This document shows, piece by piece, positions 1 to 1,443 of a stretch of 34,127 nt of DNA. Position 1 is the first letter of the stretch; each line of letters starts with the position of its first letter. The position numbers were made by a program, and so were the translations under genes. A model generated the notes under the pieces. The model did no database searches. It was not told the origin of the DNA and saw only the letters and a program-made list of their open reading frames with translations. The stretch covers positions 1 to 34,127 of the forward strand of contig JAFZNE010000075.1 of the NCBI GenBank assembly GCA_017553035.1, given 5' to 3'. The DNA comes from Lachnospiraceae bacterium. Lineage in GTDB: Bacteria; Bacillota; Clostridia; Lachnospirales; Lachnospiraceae.

Positions 1-1443
1 AAGACAACGCTTCTGCGTATTCTGGCCGGATTCCTTGAGCCCGACGAGGGAAGCGTTATTTTCGACGGCGATGATATTACTACACTTCCGCCCTATAAGC
101 GCGACCTGAATACCGTATTCCAGAAGTACGCGCTGTTCCCTCACATGAATGTATTTGATAATGTTGCTTTCGGCCTTAACATCAAGAAGGAGCCGAAGGA
201 CCTTATAGAACAGAAGGTTATGCGTATGCTTAAGCTCGTAGGTCTTGAGGACTACGGCAAGCGCAGCATCAACGAAATGTCCGGCGGACAGCAACAGCGT
301 GTGGCGATCGCACGTGCGCTGGTAAACGAGCCCGGAGTACTGCTTCTTGACGAGCCGCTCTCCGCTCTTGACGCGAAGCTGCGTAAGGAAATGCAGAGAG
401 AGCTGAAGAAGATCCAGAAGGAAGTAGGAATTACCTTCATTTTCGTAACACACGACCAGGAAGAGGCGCTTACGATGTCCGACAAGATCGTGGTAATGAA
501 GGAAGGCGAGATCCAGCAGATCGGTTCTCCGACCGACATTTACAACGAGCCCGCGAACCGCTATGTCGCAAACTTTATCGGCGCCAGCAATATCGTTGAC
601 GGAACGATGCTTGAGGACTGCAAGGTTATGTTCGGTGACAAGGTCTTCGAGTGCGTGGACAGAGGATTTACCGAGAAAGAGCCGGTTGACGTGGTCATAC
701 GTCCCGAGGACCTTGATATAGTAGATGTTAAAGCAGGTAAACTGAGAGGTATCGTAAAGTCTGTCCTGTTCAAGGGCATCCATTATGAGACAGTTGTAGA
801 AACAAAAGCAGGTACCTCGATCCAGGTTAAAATGTATGTTTCGGACAACAAGCCGATCGTAAATGAAGAAGCGGGCGAGATGATGTCAGCCAACGATTTC
901 TACCTCGATGATGACGACGTTGAAGAGATCACGGATGCTTATATTATCGACCGTGCCGATGCACAGGCCTGGAATCCGGAGACCGACGAACGTATTTCGA
1001 TCGTGCGTGTCGAGCATGATATCAGGAAAGAGAACGGAACTTATCCGGTTACGTTCTTTACCGCTGCGGGAACGAGCGTTACCGCCAACATGATCGTTGA
1101 AGATACCAACAGGGCGGTTGACGAAGAGTACGGCGAAGAGATCTACGCATTCAATTTCTTCAAGAACATCGACGAGATCCAGGAAAGTCTCGTGCTCGAC
1201 ACCGATCTGAAGATCTGGGCGAACGCGGTGGCATATGATCTCGAAGACGGCACACCCGTTGAGATCACGGATGTTGAGTATAATTTTGATCCCGAGACGC
1301 TCACTCCCGGTGTATATACGGTAACGTTCAAAACACAAGGTTATGAATACAGGGTTGATACGACGGATAAGTCGGAGGTCGGCGACGCAGTAGGGCTGAC
1401 ATTCACTCCGGAAGATATACATGTTATGAGAAAAGAAAGGTAA
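1..1443 (+). CDS. potA: PotA, polyamine ABC transporter ATPase (5' partial) with an inserted C-terminal repeat region
   Basis: ATP-hydrolysing subunit of a spermidine/putrescine importer. The frame is open from base 1 and begins inside the Walker A lysine-threonine (KTT), so roughly 40 N-terminal residues lie outside the window; the ATG at 145 is internal. Visible motifs are the Q-loop (VFQKY, ~115), the ABC signature MSGGQ (277-291), Walker B LLLDEP (~341-356) and the H-loop THDQEEA (~448-470). The TOBE segment starts normally (IRPEDLDIV, then VKSVLFKGIHYE) and ends normally (VGLTFTPEDIHVM), but about 170 residues are inserted between its strands (~850-1368). The insert holds two related beta-rich repeats, with GTYPVTF at 1036 and GVYTVTF at 1309. 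The visible 480 residues already exceed a usual PotA (about 350-380). Order and family match with potBCD make the identity secure; the function of the insert is unknown. Confidence 0.95.
   Translation, partial: KTTLLRILAGFLEPDEGSVIFDGDDITTLPPYKRDLNTVFQKYALFPHMNVFDNVAFGLNIKKEPKDLIEQKVMRMLKLVGLEDYGKRSINEMSGGQQQRVAIARALVNEPGVLLLDEPLSALDAKLRKEMQRELKKIQKEVGITFIFVTHDQEEALTMSDKIVVMKEGEIQQIGSPTDIYNEPANRYVANFIGASNIVDGTMLEDCKVMFGDKVFECVDRGFTEKEPVDVVIRPEDLDIVDVKAGKLRGIVKSVLFKGIHYETVVETKAGTSIQVKMYVSDNKPIVNEEAGEMMSANDFYLDDDDVEEITDAYIIDRADAQAWNPETDERISIVRVEHDIRKENGTYPVTFFTAAGTSVTANMIVEDTNRAVDEEYGEEIYAFNFFKNIDEIQESLVLDTDLKIWANAVAYDLEDGTPVEITDVEYNFDPETLTPGVYTVTFKTQGYEYRVDTTDKSEVGDAVGLTFTPEDIHVMRKER
850..1368 (+). 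repeat. Two-copy protein repeat inserted in the PotA TOBE domain
   Basis: Two modules of about 75-90 residues can be aligned by eye. The first runs from about 886 (SANDFYLDDD) to 1107 and the second from about 1144 (AFNFFKNIDE) to 1368. Shared positions include an acidic stretch, an A-x-A-x-A/W-N/D segment, V-E-x-D/N, and a terminal G-x-Y-x-VTF strand followed by a further strand. The matching glycines at 1036 and 1309 are 91 codons apart. The pattern resembles bacterial Ig-like beta-sandwich modules, usually found outside the cell, whereas this protein should be cytoplasmic. The Ig-like label is inference from the strand pattern. Confidence 0.6.

Follow-up and report, generated by a model that had tools for sequence, protein, structure and literature searches.

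The window studied here, that is, the whole stretch of 34,127 nucleotides analyzed (contig JAFZNE010000075.1 of the Lachnospiraceae bacterium assembly GCA_017553035.1), opens with a gene for PotA, the ATPase of a predicted polyamine importer, and the regulatory TOBE domain of this PotA is interrupted by a conserved and acidic insert of about 179 residues. By its sequence, the insert appears to consist of a last strand, then module 1, and finally module 2 deprived of its own last strand. The first module is predicted to be immunoglobulin (Ig)-like, and both are related in sequence to modules of exported proteins.

The host gene was assigned to PotA by a profile scan of the 5′-truncated open reading frame (ORF) at 1..1443 on the forward strand (363.1 bits for TIGR01187, whose cut-off is 355.6), and the Pfam scan of the same ORF gave ABC_tran (3.5e-27) and, in two stretches, TOBE_2 (1.6e-10). 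As the contig begins at the window start, the first 42 residues are missing relative to P0001, a full-length relative of 522 residues with 98.5% identity across the shared 480 residues. The nearest named relatives are Lachnospiraceae metagenome assemblies. The motifs MSGGQQQR, LLLDEP and THDQ, which we take to be the ABC (ATP-binding cassette) signature, Walker B and H-loop, respectively, are all in the window ORF; Walker A is intact in P0001 only and not in the truncated ORF. The original prediction had described a normal ATPase core, intact ends of the TOBE domain and an insertion between them. The observation itself was confirmed by the three profiles and by alignment to PotA lacking the insert, and the 50 structural matches listed for the model of the full-length protein are all ATPases, so that the rest of PotA around the insert is predicted to be normal and intact.

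The insert sits between the strands HYETVVET and YEYRVDTTD. It occupies window residues 269-447, i.e., 179 residues compared with about 4 in the insert-less PotA L029, which reads ...HYEILVETSARTYMIHTTD... at this place, and about 175 residues are therefore extra. The placement within the TOBE domain first proposed is thus retained, with corrected borders, as the segment 850-1368 started 45 bases late and ended 27 bases into YEYRVDTTD. The parts of the gene are as follows, the border between ATPase and TOBE domains (P0001 237/238) being our own choice.

1..585, forward strand: potA, nucleotide-binding (ATPase) domain, truncated at the 5′ end by the contig start (ABC_tran, P0001)
586..804, forward strand: potA, TOBE regulatory domain part 1, through strand HYETVVET (TOBE_2; comparison with insert-less PotA)
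805..1341, forward strand: insert within the TOBE domain, about 179 residues (alignment with insert-less PotA; AlphaFold2 model)
805..843, forward strand: extra strand AGTSIQVKMYV, which repeats part of the last strand of module 1 as a third copy (shuffle test; modeled as strand E315-323 in P0001)
862..1119, forward strand: module 1, predicted Ig-like (P0001 330-415)
1120..1341, forward strand: module 2 (P0001 416-489), Ig-like through kinship with module 1 (HHalign, AlphaFold2 models)
1342..1443, forward strand: potA, TOBE end (YEYRVDTTD...VGLTFTPEDIHVMRKER) and stop (comparison with insert-less PotA)

The two beta-rich modules carry G-x-Y-x-VTF strands at P0001 388 and 479, hence the spacing of 91 residues noted originally, and the relationship that had been aligned by eye exceeds what chance would give, being recovered by HHalign (probability 98.1, E 1e-13, in a search of one profile). 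Also, the module-1 profile recovered module 2 in two other genomes, with E 2.5e-9 and 8.3e-5 per genome. A further repeat was added to these two: residues 304-322 copy the last hairpin of module 1, with 8 of 19 positions identical in P0001 (a score reached by 0 of 5000 shuffles) and 6 to 12 of 19 identical across 70 aligned PotA rows. The sequence and the succession of strands suggest that module 2 borrows the native TOBE strand at 1342-1368 as its last strand.

Modeled alone with AlphaFold2, window 805-1368 gave a compact and confident structure (mean predicted local distance difference test 92.8, predicted TM-score 0.83), in line with the separately folded domains expected at the outset. Comparison of folds identified predicted module 1 as an Ig-like beta-sandwich; module 2 was barely covered in this comparison and owes its Ig-like look to its kinship with module 1. 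Foldseek matches of the insert were weak (one match at E ≤0.001, with a low TM-score; 2kpn, a Big_3 domain, at E 0.017 and probability 0.96), and the Ig-like assignment is therefore drawn from the fold comparison together with sequence kinship, and not from Foldseek by itself. No Pfam or NCBIfam family exceeded its cut-off in the insert, the best sub-threshold Pfam families being Phage_tube_C (19.9 against 24.1) and the beta-sandwich family PKD_4 (17.7 against 27), and the PDB sequence search returned a chance match only (E 0.39). No signal peptide was seen by eye, P0001 starting with MKKLVQFRNIVKSFDGQ and passing directly into the ATPase fold. Judged in this way, PotA does not have the look of an exported protein that an Ig-like domain would suggest, and its place in the importer makes a cytoplasmic location of the insert likely.

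The modules had been described as being of a usually extracellular kind, and sequence kinship agrees with this description, since profiles of the insert and of its modules also match modules in exported-looking proteins. These include a module-bearing protein with an LPKTG terminus (L135), a 237-residue membrane protein (L169), a further exported-looking protein (L171) and a repeat protein with a frame of 4306 residues, of which 3757 lie inside the fetched stretch (L252). Another, L168 (G797 contig 2), is a protein of 2841 residues with a hydrophobic N-terminus, an anchor-like YPKTG end and 19 module matches, which are of two alternating types and near neutral in charge. In one-profile searches with alignments of 4 and 5 copies, PotA module 1 was closer to type B (E 1.9e-9) than to type A (8.4e-5), and PotA module 2 was closer to type A (E 4.2e-7) than to type B (0.0043). 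The order of the modules differs, as the close pair in L168 is A then B and the pair in PotA is B-like then A-like.

The insert is not confined to this genome, nor is it general: it occurs in a minority of the family and also in other families of the phylum. It was found in the PotA of 20 of 299 family genomes, the window's own included (23 match the insert profile, three of them in other proteins), of 3 of 291 genomes of the class sample, plus one weak match, and of 3 of 398 genomes of the phylum sample, plus one surface protein. The family counts (20/299) and phylum-sample counts (3/398) show that the segment is not simply a long form of TOBE common to the order, in keeping with the original view of it. 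Among 120 family genomes, 101 match the PotA family at E ≤1e-95, and 6 of the 101 carry the insert. G114, from the window's own genus, has no insert, and no PotA match at 1e-95 either. Among the 596 stretches listed in a contig scan, 343 encode relatives, and the best 80 of the 343 were kept as carrier loci. In each of the 80, the match to the insert begins at residue 1 or 2, ends at residue 200 or 201 and lies in a PotA frame, a few of these frames being cut by contig ends. Both named strains and assemblies from animal gut and rumen include carriers, with hosts such as Anaerotignum lactatifermentans, Traorella massiliensis, Chakrabartyella piscis and a Butyricicoccus assembly. Carrier PotA is also present in the Traorella-named records L092, L095 and L102; we presume Traorella to be far from Lachnospiraceae, which would hint at horizontal spread of the insert-bearing gene.

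We then placed the carriers on a quick PotA tree of 181 rows, from which three short carriers were dropped and the insert was cut, the remaining 178 rows and P0001 being thinned to 110. The 32 carriers left formed one clade, with a Shimodaira-Hasegawa-like approximate likelihood ratio test (SH-aLRT) support of 99, and their sister group consisted of four plain PotA (98); supports are SH-aLRT values, with no bootstrap, and some plain rows are long-branched. Among these 32 carriers no insert-less row fell inside the clade. In the tree the carriers are surrounded by insert-less PotA, from which we infer that a two-module piece like those of cell-surface repeat proteins entered PotA once. If this capture is real, surface-protein modules have been reused inside a membrane pump.

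A single insert common to all long PotA was ruled out, as 20 other rows of at least 440 residues lack it and carry, after a linker, a C-terminal extension that by eye resembles a second TOBE copy (YKGDHYSYVVRT...). These rows (L010, L013, L015, L018, L020, L022, L024, L028, L032-L038, L188, L202 and L204-L206) have two origins on the tree, and several lineages of Clostridia thus seem to have enlarged the regulatory domain of PotA by different routes. Two PotA-like proteins, L193 and L196, are of intermediate length (419 and 416 residues).

The modules are conserved about like the TOBE parts. Across 70 PotA, majority-residue conservation reaches 0.88 in the ATPase; it is 0.79 and 0.74 for the two TOBE parts, 0.75 and 0.78 for modules 1 and 2, and 0.72 for the 19 residues that precede the modules. 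At 18 positions of the insert an acidic residue is found in at least 85% of rows, and conserved charged positions include E335, D345, D348, E421, D433, E437 and D444. The net charge of the insert is -28 in P0001 and averages -21.8 in the 70 aligned PotA (range -29 to -16). Per 100 residues, the PotA modules carry -12.5 and -16.0, as compared with -2.6 (standard deviation 3.4) in exported relatives, a set of 30 modules from five proteins with matches of at least 61 residues, 19 of the 30 coming from L168; a sixth protein searched, L170, had no match that long. For the whole regulatory domain, the charge means are -5.1 in 30 UgpC-type ATPases and -7.8 in 60 plain PotA-like proteins (some distant); the 20 second-TOBE rows average -8.8, and 98 carriers average -10.9. 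With the insert, the acid of the regulatory domain is more than doubled.

Downstream of potA, the window encodes the remaining components of an importer:

1644..2483, forward strand: potB, permease (NCBIfam PotB best, 1.7e-68, below cut-off)
2477..3277, forward strand: potC, permease (NCBIfam PotC second best, 1.5e-61, below cut-off)
3302..4414, forward strand: potD, substrate-binding protein (NCBIfam PotD best, 8.7e-53, below cut-off)

All three fall below the equivalog cut-offs, as does the top NCBIfam match of potC, a permease/binding-protein fusion model, and the N-terminus of PotD is lipoprotein-like by eye. By its sequence, the window ORF is the PotA of a potABCD operon, with polyamine transport as its predicted function. 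The order potA-potB-potC-potD is kept in 70 of the 80 carrier loci (in 59 of these with nothing else among the five queries), so that a polyamine is the presumed substrate. In 69 of the 80 loci an ORF was located upstream, and 49 of the 69 belong to one cluster, presumably a cupin regulator by the look of the sequence. This cupin-like gene also stands before potA in 9 of the 13 plain loci and in none of the 6 second-TOBE loci, and all 19 insert-less loci examined have pot neighbors. No extra gene tracking with the insert was seen near potA in the 80 carrier, 13 plain and 6 second-TOBE loci, the rest of the genomes not being searched, and gene neighborhood was dropped as a clue, as the context did not single out carriers. 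Directly after potD, the window encodes a TetR-type regulator (4427-5320) with a long acidic low-complexity stretch in the middle of the protein (-10.8 net charge per 100 residues), a homologue of which lies near potD in 2 of the 80 carrier loci. Farther away, 22102-24066 encodes a secreted glycoside-hydrolase-like protein (family by eye) with a Pro-Thr-rich repeat linker (EPTNTAEPTKAP...).

A study of E. coli PotABC states that spermidine significantly reduces the ATPase activity of this transporter; its authors suggest that spermidine binds the negatively charged regulatory domain and locks the transporter, and call for further investigation (PMC11414716). According to a review, feedback of this kind often requires that a small domain be fused on (PMC10710835). 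Given this published suggestion and the acidity of the insert, we favor, tentatively and at somewhat less than even odds, a polyamine-sensing feedback brake, in which the two acidic modules would bind cytoplasmic polyamines and thereby slow ATP hydrolysis by the transporter. With one module pair per PotA, two pairs would hang from the regulatory domains of a two-PotA transporter; a rise of cytosolic spermidine or putrescine would lead to binding to the acidic modules, and bound polyamine would hold the regulatory domains in the resting position, as suggested for the acidic domain of E. coli PotA. The earlier interpretation, with modules on the cytoplasmic face sensing polyamines or a partner and gating uptake, is partly supported, namely for the core, the TOBE ends, the repeats, the Ig-like prediction of module 1 and the sequence kinship with modules of exported proteins. 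The charge is consistent with a trans-inhibited importer, polyamine binding and gating being what we propose.

Several observations weaken the argument from charge. Carriers with the insert removed still average -9.0, and the four sister plain PotA range from -7.3 to -10.2, which implies that the regulatory domain was already acidic before the insert. Also, a value of -12.2 is reached by 3.6% of 281 overlapping 179-residue stretches (mean -4.2) from 11 window proteins taken as soluble; acidity at the level of the insert is uncommon, not unique. It is still more doubtful that the full sequence of events took place, in which a cytoplasmic ABC ATPase acquired, in a single event, an Ig-like pair from the surface that was made strongly acidic and now serves as a dedicated polyamine sensor closing the importer in a full cell, which would be a new kind of trans-inhibition domain.

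A docking platform, with the modules binding a partner protein in the cytoplasm by which the importer would be switched or placed, is rather unlikely in itself, and yet nearly as likely as the polyamine brake. Ig-like domains commonly bind proteins, related modules occur in cell-surface repeat proteins, and the charged positions listed above are conserved. The regulation of MalK by EIIA-Glc offers a precedent (PMC10710835). Such a partner is not signaled by the loci, where potABCD order prevails in 70 of 80, no insert-linked extra gene was seen and the upstream cupin-like cluster is also at plain loci. A ligand-free structural role, the modules stiffening, widening or spacing the regulatory-domain dimer, is possible but improbable: the fold is compact and of high confidence, and the second-TOBE enlargement at the same end of PotA in other Clostridia suggests a general gain from a bigger domain, but the acid excess over exported relatives and the conserved charged positions exceed the needs of a spacer. 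An accidental, tolerated and functionless passenger is very improbable, for although insert-less PotA is common and the remaining domain is predicted intact, the insert is complete in all 80 loci kept (partly through selection of the best-scoring of 343), its modules show the same degree of conservation as the TOBE parts, and no insert-less row lies within the clade of 32 carriers left after thinning.

How the product of polyamine import turns off its own uptake is a question of some weight, and the structural study of E. coli PotABC leaves the binding of spermidine to the regulatory domain to further work (PMC11414716). In the PotA described here, which is a natural variant, a separable acidic unit of confidently predicted structure more than doubles the regulatory domain, and the insert-less sister PotA would serve as controls. 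Such an insert is not mentioned in the open-licence PubMed Central titles and abstract starts searched. PotA and the Ig-like fold are both known, and their combination and the place of insertion are new to these searches.

Compared with known systems, the 360-residue E. coli PotA in PotABC (8y5f; PMC11414716) has no such modules, the 179 extra residues having no counterpart in the alignment, and MalK and related importer ATPases (2awo, 9j4r) have no insert. The closest folds, namely residues 360-436 of 4l3a (Internalin K), which we take to be Ig-like, the INT domains of ZmpB and the Big_3 domain 2kpn, are extracellular, unlike the PotA insert, with 12-18% sequence identity. The regulatory domains of MetNI and ModBC are of other kinds and are not known to have an Ig-like fold. 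These two importers are inhibited by their own substrate (PMC10710835) and are alike in the way of working only. The surface repeat proteins of Clostridia (the 2841-residue L168, L252 and L135) have modules related in sequence to the insert; they are exported, anchored at their ends (LPKTG, YPKTG) and near neutral in their modules, whereas the PotA modules are acidic and follow a different order of types. In Wzt of the O-antigen exporter, a cytoplasmic jelly-roll beta domain of the ABC ATPase reads the substrate and ATPase activity is modulated (PMC9445017). Wzt differs from PotA in belonging to an exporter and in having a C-terminal fusion, not an insert, that binds sugar and is of another fold family; it is a precedent for the reading of substrate in the cytoplasm by a beta domain of an ABC ATPase.
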